A DNA stretch of 64,000 nt. It comes from a virus. The notes beneath the pieces are model-generated. The model saw nothing but the letters and a program-made list of their open reading frames with translations, searched no databases and was not told where the DNA came from. Within the stretch, counting starts at the first letter, position 1; the number at the start of each line of letters is the position of its first letter. Made by a program: the position numbers and the translations under genes. Below, in pieces: positions 1 through 6,946 of this stretch. The stretch covers positions 1 to 64,000 of IMG/VR virus record IMGVR_UViG_3300020195_000027. One strand, given 5' to 3'.

Positions 1-280
1 TCTTTATCGCTCTCTGGGCTTTTACTTTTTCTTCAAGAAGGGTAATCTCTTTAGAGTCTTTTTTTAGTTTTTTAATTTCTCTATCTATTTCTTTAATTTC
101 TAGCTCTAGGCCTTCTTTTACGTCTTCACTCCATTTATCCAGTTTCTCAGACTCTTCCTTTAAGGCTAAAAAGCGATCCTCGAACGGTGTTTCGTCATCT
201 ATTGCAATCTCTGCACCGACATATCGTCCCGGCGTAAGTACGTACCCATACCACTTGATCTCAACCGTCTTTAAGGTTCT
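1..280 (-). pseudogene. C-terminal fragment of type I R-M HsdM
   Basis: Reading the minus strand gives an open frame containing the HsdM C-terminal signature [13 protein letters not shown] followed by DDETPFEDRF, then a Lys/Glu-rich coiled coil that continues off the left edge. The same signature occurs in the complete HsdM at 57737-59329, at clearly diverged nucleotide identity, so this is a different hsdM copy. In this frame a stop lies just upstream at 281-283, no usable start codon follows it, and the methyltransferase core ([12 protein letters not shown]) is absent. The upstream part is replaced by the ParB-like gene, whose last 20 bases overlap. I read it as a 5'-truncated remnant; a fused gene with an unusual start is less likely. 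Confidence 0.7.
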
Positions 281-818
281 TCACAAATTCACTTAAGTCA
301 GATTGACAGCTAGGACAAAAAGTTTTTTTAGGTTCAGAAAGTTTTTGTTCATATTCTTCAGGCTCCTCAAATGAAAAATATTCTTCTTTGAATTTATGGA
401 ATTTAATTTCAGGTAAACTATATGATTGAATGAGATCGTCAACATCAAATTTATTTTCAATCGTGTATTGATAAAGCCCATCAGAATTTATTTTTCCAAA
501 TTGAGATGCGTGATATAGAACATTTTTCTTAGCATCTTCAAATGTGTCAGCTTCGACTATATTGATAGGAACATTTGGTACTTTCACTCCTTGATTATGT
601 AACTCAATCAACACTCTTAATCTCTGATGACCATCAATTACAAAATGATTTTCACCATCAACCCACACGTTTATAGGCGAGGTAAAGCCCATGGTTAAAA
701 TACTTTTTCGTAACAACTCGAAATTATTTTTATCTAAATCTTTTAAGTTGCCTTGAAATGGTTTTAGTTTATGAATGGAAATTTCTTCGTGCCCTTTTGA
801 TTTAATAATTACTTCCAT
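261..818 (-). CDS. ParB/Srx-like DNA-binding/nuclease-fold protein
   Basis: The start is placed at ATG 818 because AAAGGAG lies eight bases upstream; the open frame itself reaches 878 without a ribosome site. The product is about 185 residues. The N-terminal half has the ParB-like pattern: a target segment (SIHKLKPFQGN), LRKSILTMGFTSPINVW, and the hallmark FVIDGHQRLRVL. The C-terminus ends in a CPSCQSDL zinc-knuckle half. Short ParB-domain proteins of this type are common in phage and mobile-element early regions, often beside or fused to DNA methylases; the role here is unknown. It is transcribed away from the late operon and overlaps the hsdM remnant. Confidence 0.8.
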   Translation of the reverse strand: MEVIIKSKGHEEISIHKLKPFQGNLKDLDKNNFELLRKSILTMGFTSPINVWVDGENHFVIDGHQRLRVLIELHNQGVKVPNVPINIVEADTFEDAKKNVLYHASQFGKINSDGLYQYTIENKFDVDDLIQSYSLPEIKFHKFKEEYFSFEEPEEYEQKLSEPKKTFCPSCQSDLSEFVKNLKDG

Positions 819-934
819 ATATTTCTCCTTTAAAATTTTTCTGTGATTATCTGCCACTATAATAAATTCTTGGTTCACATTGCGAATATAATACCGAACA
901 GTTCGTTACTAAAATATCTTTGGAGGAAAAATAC

Positions 935-1922: not shown

Positions 1923-1993
1923 TGGAAAACAAATGAGCAAAAACAAGTATAAAAACTTTGTGAATCCCGCCAATGCCCAAAAGGAGCTTGTTA

Positions 1994-4900
1994 GTGTCAG
2001 ATAATTTATTTCAACGGATTTTTGGCAATAGTCGTGAAATTAAAAAACTAGAGACAGAACTTAAATCTTTGCGCGGTGAGATGGAAGAAAATTCGATTGA
2101 TTCATATATTGAGCAAATTAGCGCATACGACAAAAGCACTGATGATTCTGGATTTCCTGTAAGTAATAATTACAACTACCACAGCGCAATAGAGCAGGAT
2201 ATAGCCAAAGTTACCCTACATAGACTATATGTGTCTGAGGGCTGGATGTATATAGCTGTCACGGCAATAGCAAAGACCATCGCGTCATTGCCATTCGTGT
2301 TAGAAAAACAAGTTGTCACGACTGAGTATGTTGACGCGTCAAATCCAGACGCGGGAACCATAAGAGCTGACTCATGGGTTGACGCTAATGGTGAGCCTGA
2401 GCATGAAATTTTTCAATATCCAAACTCCACAAGCACAGCAATTGAATTTTACATGATGATCATAATTGACCTGTTAAGTACGGGAGAGGCGTTCATATAT
2501 ATTGACCGCGGACCAGACGCAGCGGAAGTTAAAAACGCAAAAAAAATCCGACTAAAACAAAATCAAAACGGAGTTAAGGGACTTTACAGGATGAACTCTT
2601 CGGCAATTGAGCCGATAGTTGAGCCTGGAGAACTTCACATCCAAGGATACGCCGCCAATACTGCGGGTGGATATTTCAAGTTCGAGACTGAAAACATTAT
2701 CCACATAAGATTACCAAATCCCGTTGATCCAACGAGGGGCTTGTCTCCAATTGTGCCAGTAATGAAAAACATATTGCTTGATCGGTACACAACAGAACAC
2801 ATGATCAGGTTTTATAAGCAAGGCGCACGACTCGGCGGCGCAATTGAAACCGATAAGAAGCTTTCTAAAGACCAGATCACCAGACTGCAACGATCATTTG
2901 AGCAGGACTTCACAGGCCGCCAAAACCATCACAGGACGCTCATTCTTCCAGAGGGCATGAAGTATCGGACCATCGAACAAAACCCCGGTGAAACGTCTCT
3001 AATTGAGTTTAACAAGCAAAATAGAGAGCCAGTGTTATCAGCTTATGGACTTCCCCCGATCAAGGCCGGAATATTAGACGGGGCATCATTCGCCAATGCG
3101 CTAACTCAAGAGAAATCCTATTACCAAGATACTATTAAACCACTCTTAGAAATATTACAGCAATCCCTGAATCTATCAGAGAACCTAATCGCAGCAGACA
3201 GAAAAATCAGAATCAGATTCGACATGTCTGGGGTCGAAGCACTACAAGAAAACGAAACAGAAAAATCCTCAACAGCAGCGTCAAAACTTTCTTCTGGAAT
3301 GACAATCAATGAAGTTCGAAGAGAGGTGTGGGGCCTACCCCCGGTTGATGGTGGCGACCGACTTCATCCGTCCCTATCGGCTCCAGAACCTCCTCCCATG
3401 CTTCCAATGCCACCACCTCCTGACACGTCGGGTAAAGGGATAGGCGTAAGCAGTTCCAAAGAAATAATGGACATAGTTAAGGCATTTATCAAGGGTGACA
3501 TTACGCTAGATGCGGCGGTGATGATTCTTGGACAAGCTTGCGGCATTGACCAAGCGGCTGCATATTCTATGTTGGGCCACAAAGAAAAAATTAACATTCC
3601 ACAGAACACTACTCCATCGGACGTTGTGCCAACTACGGACACATTCGAGGCTAGGGTTGCACAGTTGATTTCAATCATGGTTCAAGATGGGGTTGAGGTT
3701 GCGGTAGCTACTAGGGCAGCAATTGAGCGCGCTATACTTGAGGGATTTGTCCCATCGGCTCCTATTGAAACCGTTGGAGACGACGGGGATAAAGACGGGG
3801 AATGGAATCCAGTTGCCGTTGGCGATAACGTGGTTAAGCCTCCAAGGCTTCCATCTTATGATGATGAGGATGATTCAGATTTAAAACAATCCGAGATCCC
3901 AGAACGATATGCGCCAATTAACTTTGAGCCAAGCGACGAAATATCCAAGGAAGCAAGCCAAGGGCTAACTTGGGCTGGTGAGTATTCATTGGGAACAGAA
4001 TCCCAAAAAGCCAGGGCCACGAAACTAAAAGATAAAGCAATGATGACTCCACAATCCATTAAGACAATGGCTTCTTTCTTTTCTCGCAATGATGAGAACA
4101 GAGGATATGAGGAGGATGACAAGCCAAAACCAGGCGAAATTTTATGGAAACTGTATGGCGGGGATTCGGGTCAAGCGTGGGCTAATGAAACCTACGAGTC
4201 CATGCTGGTAATAGATGACGAGGAAATCAAAAGTCTTAAGACCGAGATCCCGTACACAAAAGAGTTTCTTGATACATATAGAAAAGGTCTAACCGAGGAA
4301 AATATTAAGGACATACTTGAACTACGAGAGGAAGAGGTTGTTTCTTTCTTTGAGAGAGTGTCCAAGCTATTCCTAGACCAAGCAAGAAAACACTTTAGAC
4401 TTAAAGGTGGCAAATACATAATCAAAGCCGAAGAGAGTCCTTTTGATGCGGAAAAAATCAATAAGTTTATTGAAGAGGAAGCCAAGAGAAATCCAATCGC
4501 ATTAAGACGGGCGCATGATCTTGGATATGATAACACATTAGAAAAATATCCAATAGATATTGACGAAAAGAAAACAACGGCAGCTTTGAAGAATTTAGCC
4601 AGATTAAGCATCCTCTCTGTTGTGGCGACTACAGAAGACGACGTTACCCGAATGATATTTTTAGGAACATCAGAAGGCGACTCCGCAGGAAAGATGAGAG
4701 AAAGACTTACCGAATATTTTCAGGGAAGCAAAACCCTTTCAAGAATCCAAACAATAGTAAGAACAGAATCATTAATGTCGGTGTCGTTAGGGCAGGACTT
4801 AAAAACACAATCACTTAAAAAAGAATACCCAGAATTGGCGACCAAACTTAGAAAGGTTTGGATTACCGCTCAGGATGAAAGAGTCAGAGGAAATCCTGGT

Positions 4901-6946
4901 GGAATATATCCCGACTCAGAATTTAACCATTTCGTTTTAGACGGCGTTGTCATTGACGAAACAAAGAGATTCCCAAGTGGCTTAAGGTATCCAAGAGATC
5001 CTGGTGGAAAAGCTGGTAATATTATTAACTGCTTTCTTCCTGGCACTGAGGTCTCAGGAATATTTATAGCAGGGGTCAAATCTGATTACACTGGACCTGC
5101 CATCGAGATAAAGACCGAGTCTGGAAGGAAACTTAGGGTCACGACCAATCACAAAATACTTACCAAAAGAGGTTGGCTTGCCGCCAAAGATATTAATGGA
5201 TTTGATGAGGTTATTTCTTACAAAACCCCAATCGACTCCGCTCTTGTGGTAGGAGAGATCAACAAAGATAATAAACCATCCCTGGTCGAGAATGTATTTA
5301 AGTCTCTTCTTATAGATGGGGAATCTTTGCGTAGGGATTTGAGAGCCAATGATCTCAATGGCGATTCTGAGTTTATCAATGGAAGCGTCAATGTTGTAAT
5401 TTCCAATAGCCTTTTGTTCAGTGACGGTAAATCCGTTGTTCGTCAAAAAATTAATGATACTATCCTCAAACAAAAACTTATGAGTCTTTCTAATTTGTCT
5501 GGTTTTAGCTCTAGCAATTTTAGTGGAGACAAGATCGACCTGCCCGCGCCTAGCGTTCCAGGCAGAAGAGCATTGTTGAATGACTCTCTTTCTATCGTGT
5601 TTGATTCTGGACCACTTCAAGGACTCGGATTCAGAAGAACCTCGCTGTTGGAATCCAAGTTTATTGAAGTGTCGGACGATAGAAATCCTGCTGATCCCGT
5701 ATTTATTCGAGAGTTCGTTAACAGAGAATCCGATTTTATGTTCTTCGATAAGGTCATTGAAATTAATCTTTTTGACTATTGCGGCCATGTGTACGATCTC
5801 CAATCTCTAAGTGGTTGTTTAATGTCTGATGGCGTATTAACGCATAATTGTCGATGCACACATCTTGTTTTCGTATCAGAGGATGAGGATGACGTATTGG
5901 ATAGTCTAGGAAGATCACCAGCTAAAGGTGGTCCAGGAAGCGGTTGCAGGGGTCCAAGCTGCGGAAGACCTCGCGGATCGGGAAGCGGGGATAAAATAGA
6001 AGAGGTATTGGAAGCCGTTGGCGCACCAAATCCCAAGGGTGGATCATCACAAGCGGCGTGGCAGTTATGCGATCCGGCTTGTCGCTACACAGAAAAAAGA
6101 GCAGCACTACACAATCAAACTGTAGCCAGAACATTAAGAGATGGAAAAAAGGGAAATCCACCAATAGCTATATTAACGGCTGGTGGCGGTGGGGCTGGTA
6201 AATCCACAACCATGCAATTAGTTCTTACACAATTTCCTCAAAAATTTGTACATTTGGATTCAGACAAATTCAAAAAAGAATTGCCAGAATATCGTGCGTT
6301 GACAAAGGCGAAGAATCCCAAGGCTGCTTCATTTGTTCACGAAGAGTCCAGCGACCTAGTTGCTAAGGCGTTTAAAGAATCAATTACAAAAAACAAAAAC
6401 CTAATTTATGATTCTACCTTCTCTAATCCAGATAAGGCGACTAACATAATAACCAGACTAAAAAGCGAAGGATATAAAGTTCACCTTGTTTATACTGATG
6501 TGCCAGCTGCCACGGCAATTGAACGGGCGGCTGGTAGAGCAAATAGAAGCGGTCGGTCTGTTCCTTTGGACGTGCTTAAAAAAGCTCACGCTGGAGCTAT
6601 CCTCACGCTTAATAAGGTTAACTCTTTACCAGATACCGTTACGGTTTTTTCCAACATTGGAAAGACACCTAAAATTGCGTATCAAAGACTTGGTCCATCC
6701 GAGACAGTTATCAATAATCTACTTCTAAACGAAATGAAAGTTAGGGGCCACTCAATCAAAGCTCTTGGAAACAATGAGGATGTATTCGAGATCGATCCTT
6801 TATTCATGGAGTTTATGAATACTTGGTATGAAACCGAAGTCCAAGAGGATGACGACATACTTGATGTTTATGACGAGGGTGTGGACATTGACCAGTATCC
6901 AGAGGCAAAAGAAAACGCCGAATCTGGTGAAAAAGGAGAAATTTAA
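1994..6946 (+). CDS. Portal-MuF-zeta toxin fusion interrupted by an intein
   Basis: The likely start is GTG 1994, seven bases after AAGGAG; an in-frame ATG lies at 1973, and residue numbers below count from that ATG (1657 codons). Residues about 20-480 are an HK97-type portal (FYKQGARLGGAIE, then LSAYGLPPIKAGILDGASF), the dodecameric DNA-entry ring. About 480-830 is an acidic linker. About 850-1300 is a MuF/SPP1 gp7 minor head domain (IVRTESLMS, VWITAQDERVR, then IIN/CRCT). An intein occupies 1020-1292. A low-complexity GPGSGCRG hinge leads to a zeta-toxin kinase at about 1395-1590 with Walker A GGGGAGKST (near 1404), DSDKFKKELPEY, HEESS and DSTF. Zeta toxins phosphorylate UDP-N-acetylglucosamine; MuF proteins are known carriers of polymorphic toxin domains. 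No antitoxin gene was recognised nearby. Having portal, MuF and toxin in one chain is unusual; a sequencing fusion is not suggested, as the frame is intact. Confidence 0.88.
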   Translation: MSDNLFQRIFGNSREIKKLETELKSLRGEMEENSIDSYIEQISAYDKSTDDSGFPVSNNYNYHSAIEQDIAKVTLHRLYVSEGWMYIAVTAIAKTIASLPFVLEKQVVTTEYVDASNPDAGTIRADSWVDANGEPEHEIFQYPNSTSTAIEFYMMIIIDLLSTGEAFIYIDRGPDAAEVKNAKKIRLKQNQNGVKGLYRMNSSAIEPIVEPGELHIQGYAANTAGGYFKFETENIIHIRLPNPVDPTRGLSPIVPVMKNILLDRYTTEHMIRFYKQGARLGGAIETDKKLSKDQITRLQRSFEQDFTGRQNHHRTLILPEGMKYRTIEQNPGETSLIEFNKQNREPVLSAYGLPPIKAGILDGASFANALTQEKSYYQDTIKPLLEILQQSLNLSENLIAADRKIRIRFDMSGVEALQENETEKSSTAASKLSSGMTINEVRREVWGLPPVDGGDRLHPSLSAPEPPPMLPMPPPPDTSGKGIGVSSSKEIMDIVKAFIKGDITLDAAVMILGQACGIDQAAAYSMLGHKEKINIPQNTTPSDVVPTTDTFEARVAQLISIMVQDGVEVAVATRAAIERAILEGFVPSAPIETVGDDGDKDGEWNPVAVGDNVVKPPRLPSYDDEDDSDLKQSEIPERYAPINFEPSDEISKEASQGLTWAGEYSLGTESQKARATKLKDKAMMTPQSIKTMASFFSRNDENRGYEEDDKPKPGEILWKLYGGDSGQAWANETYESMLVIDDEEIKSLKTEIPYTKEFLDTYRKGLTEENIKDILELREEEVVSFFERVSKLFLDQARKHFRLKGGKYIIKAEESPFDAEKINKFIEEEAKRNPIALRRAHDLGYDNTLEKYPIDIDEKKTTAALKNLARLSILSVVATTEDDVTRMIFLGTSEGDSAGKMRERLTEYFQGSKTLSRIQTIVRTESLMSVSLGQDLKTQSLKKEYPELATKLRKVWITAQDERVRGNPGGIYPDSEFNHFVLDGVVIDETKRFPSGLRYPRDPGGKAGNIINCFLPGTEVSGIFIAGVKSDYTGPAIEIKTESGRKLRVTTNHKILTKRGWLAAKDINGFDEVISYKTPIDSALVVGEINKDNKPSLVENVFKSLLIDGESLRRDLRANDLNGDSEFINGSVNVVISNSLLFSDGKSVVRQKINDTILKQKLMSLSNLSGFSSSNFSGDKIDLPAPSVPGRRALLNDSLSIVFDSGPLQGLGFRRTSLLESKFIEVSDDRNPADPVFIREFVNRESDFMFFDKVIEINLFDYCGHVYDLQSLSGCLMSDGVLTHNCRCTHLVFVSEDEDDVLDSLGRSPAKGGPGSGCRGPSCGRPRGSGSGDKIEEVLEAVGAPNPKGGSSQAAWQLCDPACRYTEKRAALHNQTVARTLRDGKKGNPPIAILTAGGGGAGKSTTMQLVLTQFPQKFVHLDSDKFKKELPEYRALTKAKNPKAASFVHEESSDLVAKAFKESITKNKNLIYDSTFSNPDKATNIITRLKSEGYKVHLVYTDVPAATAIERAAGRANRSGRSVPLDVLKKAHAGAILTLNKVNSLPDTVTVFSNIGKTPKIAYQRLGPSETVINNLLLNEMKVRGHSIKALGNNEDVFEIDPLFMEFMNTWYETEVQEDDDILDVYDEGVDIDQYPEAKENAESGEKGEI
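5030..5848 (+). mobile_element. Hint-domain intein inserted in the MuF NCRC motif
   Basis: Splicing blocks are visible in frame with the host gene: N-terminal Cys1020 in CFLPGTEV (block A), RVTTNHKILTKRGW (block B, TxxH), FDKVIEINLFDYCGHVYDLQ (block F) and GVLTHN before Cys1293 (block G with terminal His-Asn). Excision rejoins IIN to CRCT, restoring the conserved NCRC motif of MuF proteins. Length is 273 residues. The sense-strand middle (about 1085-1245) has no LAGLIDADG or HNH motif and is Ser/Leu/Asn-rich. This is what one expects if the other strand is the one under selection. Confidence 0.93.
5054..5788 (-). CDS. Antisense homing endonuclease-like gene nested in the intein
   Basis: ATG 5788 is preceded by GGAG with nine bases between; the frame could also be entered at TTG 5803. 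The 244-residue product begins with a HTH/NUMOD-like DNA-binding module (GFSVNELSNKYGISRISIVR, residues 20-39, then KKLG-like spacing and an ARRG motif near 79-82). A Vsr-like or PD-(D/E)XK nuclease core follows: E108 in FEDSII, D134 in GNYNID, E145 in RIAIEIIG, and LKYILDQGWFIIFVDL. This resembles the Vsr-related homing nucleases known from phage introns and split inteins. The gene lies entirely within the intein on the opposite strand; its start sits in the block F codons and its stop within block A. It would make intein-less NCRC alleles targets for homing (inference). Expression against the late operon would need its own minus-strand promoter, which I could not define. Confidence 0.85.
   Translation of the reverse strand: MAAIVKKINFNDLIEEHKIGFSVNELSNKYGISRISIVRHFNKLGFQQRGSSESESLKWSRIKHDRKRVIQQCSSAWNARRGQVDLVSTKIARAKTRQIRKTHKFLFEDSIINFLTNNGFTVTEQKAIGNYNIDASIDKLRIAIEIIGSQIPTQRFPIYKKRLKYILDQGWFIIFVDLSYHKSGVDWGFVRNNLIKSINIFGGKPTSFGKYFVIGRDPKFPSRLGLYLDGRSSVIRFDPCYKYS

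Follow-up and report, generated by a model that had tools for sequence, protein, structure and literature searches.

Mobile inteins are usually described as a splicing protein and a nuclease fused in one reading frame. The intein analysed here lies in a head gene of a viral DNA stretch of 64,000 nucleotides (the window; positions 1 to 64,000 of IMG/VR record IMGVR_UViG_3300020195_000027), and it has no nuclease in its own frame, while the opposite strand of the same DNA holds a long open frame. This raises the question of whether that frame is a gene, what it encodes and how it relates to the intein. Our answer, which we hold with high confidence, is that the intein is a mobile one and that the gene for its homing endonuclease lies entirely within it on the other strand, in codon-for-codon register; cleavage, splicing and transcription are inferred. 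The features of the locus are collected in Table 1.

Table 1. Features of the intein locus and of the gene on its opposite strand (window positions).
Feature	Position	Strand	Basis
Host gene encoding 1657 aa, with portal domain, MuF-like region, intein and zeta-toxin/kinase-like C-terminus	1973..6946	+	Phage_portal 2e-55, head morphogenesis PHROG 1e-16, Zeta_toxin 2e-36, Intein_splicing 2e-9
Class 1 intein, 273 aa, between IIN and CRCTHL	5030..5848	+	PF14890 match, AF2 Hint fold, PDB inteins as top hits
Block B of the intein (T38-T-N-H41), conservation driven by the sense strand	5141..5152	+	
Motif D-[FL]-H-G-D, here DLNGD, opposite nuclease V-A-V-E-V strand; conserved on both strands	5351..5365	+	
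Predicted disordered stretch of the intein (residues 129-222), facing the HTH, linker and first catalytic helix of the nuclease	5414..5695	+	AF2 pLDDT <50
Putative antisense homing-endonuclease gene, ATG to TGA, 244 aa, HTH + Vsr-like PD-(D/E)XK	5054..5788	-	
Predicted catalytic core, aa 108-177	5258..5467	-	E108 5465-5467, Y131 5396-5398, N132 5393-5395, D134 5387-5389, E145 5354-5356
Predicted helix-turn-helix region, aa 10-43	5660..5761	-	AF2 helices 10-19, 23-30, 34-43; HTH Pfam matches in relatives
Codon used by both genes: CAT (block F His253) on +, ATG (antisense start) on -	5786..5788	-	
Shine-Dalgarno GGAG, 9 nt upstream of antisense ATG, over block F codons	5798..5801	-	

The intein sits within a single 1657-aa open reading frame (1973-6946, plus strand), a fusion of a portal, a MuF-like region and a zeta-toxin/kinase-like domain around it. 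Once joined, the window exteins align with MuF proteins from other phages that have no intein, and the alignment spans the junction. Elsewhere in the window, a 205-aa ORF adjoining the packaging genes (261-878, minus strand) reads like a ParB-type domain protein.

Searched alone against Pfam, the 273-aa intein matched Intein_splicing (PF14890, E 1.1e-10) and nothing else, and no endonuclease domain was found by Pfam in its own frame. It carries the residue set of a class 1 intein, namely C1, the block B T38-x-x-H41, the block F H253 and a C-terminal His-Asn with N273, followed by C+1; C1, T38, H41, H253 and N273 were invariant across 49 intein sequences. The AF2 model of the intein placed residues 1-60 and 241-273 in a Hint fold at pLDDT >90, and its best PDB matches were inteins. 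From the intact residues and the Hint fold we infer that the intein splices; there are no protein data. In the same model, the disordered stretch 129-222 looks as expected if it were filler held open for the other strand. The D-[FL]-H-G-D motif of the intein (alignments A6 and A7) shows more sense-strand conservation than the opposing VAVEV requires. The notion that the sense motif DFHGD is a pure mirror of the nuclease AVEV strand was rejected, as sense conservation exceeds the antisense need.

The opposite-strand gene is contained entirely in the intein, starting at 5788 and ending with a TGA at 5054, and each intein codon is the exact reverse complement of an antisense codon, one for one. 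The first-pass annotation had claimed an intein at 5030-5848 with intact splicing blocks and no endonuclease of its own, lying over a 244-codon frame (5788-5054) with a ribosome site, an HTH and a Vsr-like core, and with its start in the codons of block F and its stop in those of block A. All of this was borne out: the splicing residues are present and Pfam gives Intein_splicing only, a GGAG precedes the start, the AF2 model and profile matches support the two domains, the ATG lies opposite the CAT of His253, and the stop is complementary to the Ser9 codon, eight codons past Cys1. In this register the sense wobble position is antisense position 1, the antisense wobble position is sense position 1 and second positions are common to both; selection on the two frames is separable because the wobble of each is position 1 of the other.

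The same placement recurs in relatives. The start region lies over block F HVYNL in most of 100 unique cases, and in most cases the block F sense codons give GGAG or GAGG, then about 8-9 nt, then ATG on the opposite strand. The block F His was encoded by CAT, which yields the ATG, in 77/89, compared with 40.7 expected from extein usage (P 1e-15), and in the cases inspected the antisense frame stopped within or soon after block A. In a promoter scan, no sigma-70-like promoter stood out near the antisense start; the single minus-strand match lay downstream of that start and was below shuffle expectation.

The predicted antisense protein is supported, by sequence profile and by modelled fold, as a Vsr-like nuclease of the I-Bth0305I type, and its DNA cleavage is inferred. 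AF2 modelled it with a mean pLDDT of 87 as three N-terminal helices (the HTH), a helical linker and a helix-beta-beta-beta-helix-beta core. Foldseek ranked the catalytic domain of I-Bth0305I (3r3p) first, with a probability of 1.00 and a modest E of 7e-3, and the next nucleases were Vsr entries (1vsr, 1cw0); a profile search with alignment A6 matched 3r3p_A at E 3.4e-6. The window protein alone gave only weak Pfam matches, MTES_1575 scoring 23.2 of 38.2 bits and so falling below the curated cutoff, and this family was matched by 58/77 members of the protein family. The conserved acidic residues of a PD-(D/E)XK/Vsr-like core are in place: E108, D134 and E145, picked out by eye in the first-pass annotation, are three of only six antisense positions that are invariant in 77 relatives.

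We then considered chance and selection. The codons TTA, CTA and TCA, which read as antisense stops, make up 5.9% of codons in the other window genes, so that an open run of 249 codons has P ~3e-7. As a null, the intein protein was held fixed and its synonymous codons were redrawn from the flanking genes in 300 trials: reshuffles of the window intein had a mean of 20.3 antisense stops and 0/300 were open. The real antisense product scored 104 against a free-standing relative (described below), compared with 32 +/- 4 and a maximum of 46 for the null. Among relatives, 16/16 exceeded the null maximum against the window protein and 15/16 did so against the free-standing one, L022 being the sole exception. 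Openness of the frame by itself was rejected as evidence for GC-rich phages, in which up to 56/300 shuffles remain open.

Substitution patterns separate the two frames. In 16 disjoint pairs, intein differences fell at sense positions 1/2/3 in proportions of 50/17/33%, whereas in the exteins of the same genes these were 28/21/51%, and position 1 exceeded position 3 in 16/16 inteins and 0/16 exteins. E108, Y131, N132, D134 and E145 were unchanged in the 77 diverse relatives, but the intein residues facing them vary; for example, F and L alternate opposite E145, and V and I opposite D134. Antisense conservation dominated over aa 1-200, and sense conservation dominated opposite blocks A and B. Computation thus establishes that the antisense frame is under purifying selection, and that selection is strongest on this frame rather than confined to the sense strand.

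The free-standing relative is a 297-aa protein found in three Acinetobacter phages (IME285, BUCT629 and P1068). Its gene has 12 stops in the opposing phase-0 frame and is convergent with an intact, intein-free MuF gene, whose end it overlaps by 7 nt. Used as a query, it retrieved nested antisense ORFs in MuF inteins, with E 9e-34 in Vibrio phage PvVp04 and 1e-27 in Aaphi23, and it also matched nested antisense ORFs in Klebsiella phages, Edwardsiella MSW-3 and ~60 Salmonella records. The protein exists without an intein and therefore is not a shadow of one.

A search with the window protein returned 51 phage records at E <0.01, and one plasmid matched as well; in the records that were opened, the match lay on the antisense strand within a gene for MuF, minor head or head morphogenesis, or within one equivalently placed. 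Scanning viral contigs with the single sequence of the window protein yielded no relative. As a 22-member alignment was too divergent for pattern scans, closer subsets were used, and scans of viral and genome contigs added ~160 loci, some of them redundant. The opposing frame in register was uninterrupted in 187/188 loci with a profile match, and the other two opposing frames at these 188 loci usually had several to dozens of stops. Phage groups with the arrangement include Salmonella, Gordonia, Vibrio, Pseudomonas and Mycobacterium phages. When the search was reversed and sense-side patterns were used, 80 loci were found and the antisense match was kept in 80/80; of the two sense-side patterns, one overlaps the nuclease core, so this search is not fully independent. 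A homing cycle would be expected to leave some degenerate antisense copies, but the relatives examined showed none, and Salmonella phage GE_vB_HIL, with a partial intein match in an UNVERIFIED record, was excluded as a case of decay.

The first-pass annotation had named three outcomes that would refute it: no nuclease homologue of the antisense product, frequent stops in the antisense frame of close relatives, and selection confined to the sense strand. None was realized, as I-Bth0305I, Vsr and MTES_1575 were matched by profile and fold, close and distant relatives keep the frame open, and selection on the antisense frame is the strongest. We consider it very probable that these loci belong to a class of two-strand mobile inteins, widespread and ancient, in the head genes of tailed phages, in which the same base pairs encode both proteins in codon register and block F doubles as ribosome-binding site and start of the nuclease gene.

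Several loci met in these searches have features of their own. Three antisense-nuclease inteins (L143 3830-4708, L178 4001-4750 and L018 3001-3729) lie in host genes without a Pfam MuF match, the L143 context resembling a prohead protease by eye; judging from these three, the class may not be limited to MuF. At L126 (2822-7066, minus strand) a MuF-intein protein is fused to an ADP-ribosyltransferase-like domain (Pfam 2e-14), and L014 (NZ_LN890657.1) is a Promineifilum 'plasmid' that carries phage head genes and the intein and resembles a phage-plasmid. Near MuF, additional ORFs on the opposite strand, possibly other homing genes, occur in Salmonella phage UPWr_S5 (L010, 4627-5277 and 5659-6312, plus strand) and in Salmonella phage PK1 (L025, 1573-2112, plus strand), the latter being annotated as an endonuclease.

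With regard to mobility, the joined flanks of the LSPA1 intein matched contiguously in Salmonella and E. coli phages (Guernseyvirinae) in 289 records at a coverage of at least 80%, the match being confirmed as a single piece for those listed, and the LSPA1 intein itself was matched by 63 Salmonella records. Intein-free alleles are common, because the joined flanks occur contiguously in hundreds of phages, and the insertion site is polymorphic for presence and absence, empty in Guernseyvirinae and filled in the intein-bearing Salmonella records. The fEg-Eco06 intein occupies another MuF site (STT^CRARDG) and is missing from the LSPA1 site (PAHPN^CRSTT), and the reverse holds for LSPA1. The Guernseyvirinae MuF has, in L022 and L009, two intein sites, each with an antisense nuclease of the family and each empty in the other phage.

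Identities of intein and exteins were discordant in several pairs: 87% for the intein versus 66% and 60% for the N- and C-exteins in L003/L026, 87% versus 62% and 52% in L003/L036, and 69% versus 45% and 42% in L058/L092. Other pairs show the reverse, such as L013/L016 with 86% for the intein versus 93% and 96%. This discordance is the pattern of a unit moving between lineages.

We propose that the plus strand would yield the precursor of a MuF-type head protein, from which the Hint domain, judging by its intact residues and fold, would splice the intein out, and that the minus strand would yield the 244-aa protein from the start site embedded in block F. The helix-turn-helix module of this protein would bind DNA and its Vsr-like PD-(D/E)XK core (E108, D134, E145) would cut the intein-less MuF allele of a co-infecting phage, whereupon repair from the intein-bearing copy would spread intein and nuclease gene together. 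Computation establishes the two coding frames and the purifying selection on the antisense one, the folds of both proteins, the arrangement across the family, the existence of intein-free alleles and the pattern of transfer; DNA cleavage, its target site, splicing and minus-strand transcription are inferred. That antisense coding uncouples early nuclease expression from late splicing is attractive but without support here.

Other readings of these data were weighed. If the antisense frame were a shadow ORF, open and conserved merely because the codon-aligned plus-strand intein is conserved, one could point to the second positions that both frames have in common and to GC-rich phages, where the frame is often open by chance: L002 is open far past the intein, and 45-56/300 shuffles stay open in such phages. 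Against this stand the shuffle null, the invariant catalytic residues opposite variable sense residues and the confident nuclease model, and the reading is already refuted by the intein-less free-standing homologue together with the reversed substitution position bias; we give it practically no credence. Nor do we find it credible, save as a very slight chance, that the intein is no longer spliced and that its frame persists only so that the head protein can be read through as the nuclease gene spreads. The five residues invariant in 49 sequences, the Hint fold with inteins as top matches and the sense-side conservation of blocks A-B contradict such a loss, even though disorder is predicted for residues 129-222 and, along most of the length, selection is dominated by the antisense frame.

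The remaining alternatives accept both proteins and dispute how they are connected. The antisense protein might be real but not the homing enzyme of the intein, acting for example as a nuclease against competing phages or as a regulator, a view left room by the lack of biochemical data on cleavage of the MuF site and by the free-standing relative that occurs outside any intein. We regard it as improbable, since the gene is nearly always wholly inside an intein, moves with it and is found at several different insertion sites, and since the solved structure closest to it by fold belongs to a homing endonuclease. We think it likewise unlikely that the nuclease gene is a parasite in its own right, which invaded mini-inteins and moves independently of them. 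The free-standing copy in Obolenskviruses, convergent with an intein-free MuF gene, would make a plausible ancestral state for this scenario; yet the antisense gene was kept in 80/80 inteins found by sense-strand patterns, its start codon and stop codon are tied to blocks F and A of the intein, and the unit transfers whole.

Mobile inteins and Vsr-like homing nucleases are both known; what appears new for inteins is the antisense architecture, for which we found no description in the literature searched. A survey of mycobacteriophage inteins does not contain the word antisense (PMC5050341). A preprint cited in PMC11855218 deals with actinophage inteins of 'non-canonical architecture' (10.1101/2025.01.02.630785). 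Our literature search found no antisense homing gene inside an intein, and this preprint may cover part of the ground; leaving its content aside, the earlier suggestion that the system is undescribed holds for what was searched.

As the two functions are divided between genes on the two strands of one 0.8-kb stretch, the nuclease need not fold inside the intein, and nuclease and intein could be expressed independently. The locus is a rare natural case of a long stretch in which both strands encode folded, selected proteins in register, and the relatives from many phage groups allow the evolution of overlapping genes to be tested. Many phage head-protein inteins that have been treated as nuclease-free are probably mobile.

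Mobile inteins with an in-frame LAGLIDADG or HNH nuclease likewise combine intein and homing enzyme in one DNA unit, with Hint blocks and intein-free alleles, but the nuclease described here is a separate gene on the other strand instead of a domain of the intein protein. The catalytic domain is homologous, by profile and fold, to I-Bth0305I and other Vsr-like homing endonucleases, 3r3p being the closest solved structure by fold; in contrast to I-Bth0305I, which belongs to an intron or fractured-gene setting, the present gene lies antisense inside an intein and has an N-terminal HTH. Fractured genes with split inteins, said to have been described by Dassa in 2009 with a Vsr-like nuclease standing free between the intein halves, likewise link such a nuclease to an intein, whereas here the intein is continuous and nested over the nuclease gene. 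Nuclear group I introns are known to carry homing genes that likewise run antisense to their host element, and for one of these, I-DsqI, cleavage has been demonstrated (PMC9548176). That host is a self-splicing RNA intron, in which the second strand need not encode a splicing protein, and the nuclease is of the His-Cys type; the present host is no group I ribozyme but an in-frame intein, recognized by its ORF and Hint fold. Finally, the ShiLan domain (PMC11855218), where an HNH gene occupies an alternative frame of a non-splicing insertion in a phage methylase, is likewise an overlapping-frame homing nuclease within an insertion in a phage gene. The ShiLan nuclease, however, uses another frame of the same transcript, is of the HNH type and has no detected splicing domain, whereas the nuclease described here is encoded on the opposite strand, is Vsr-like and accompanies a splicing domain.
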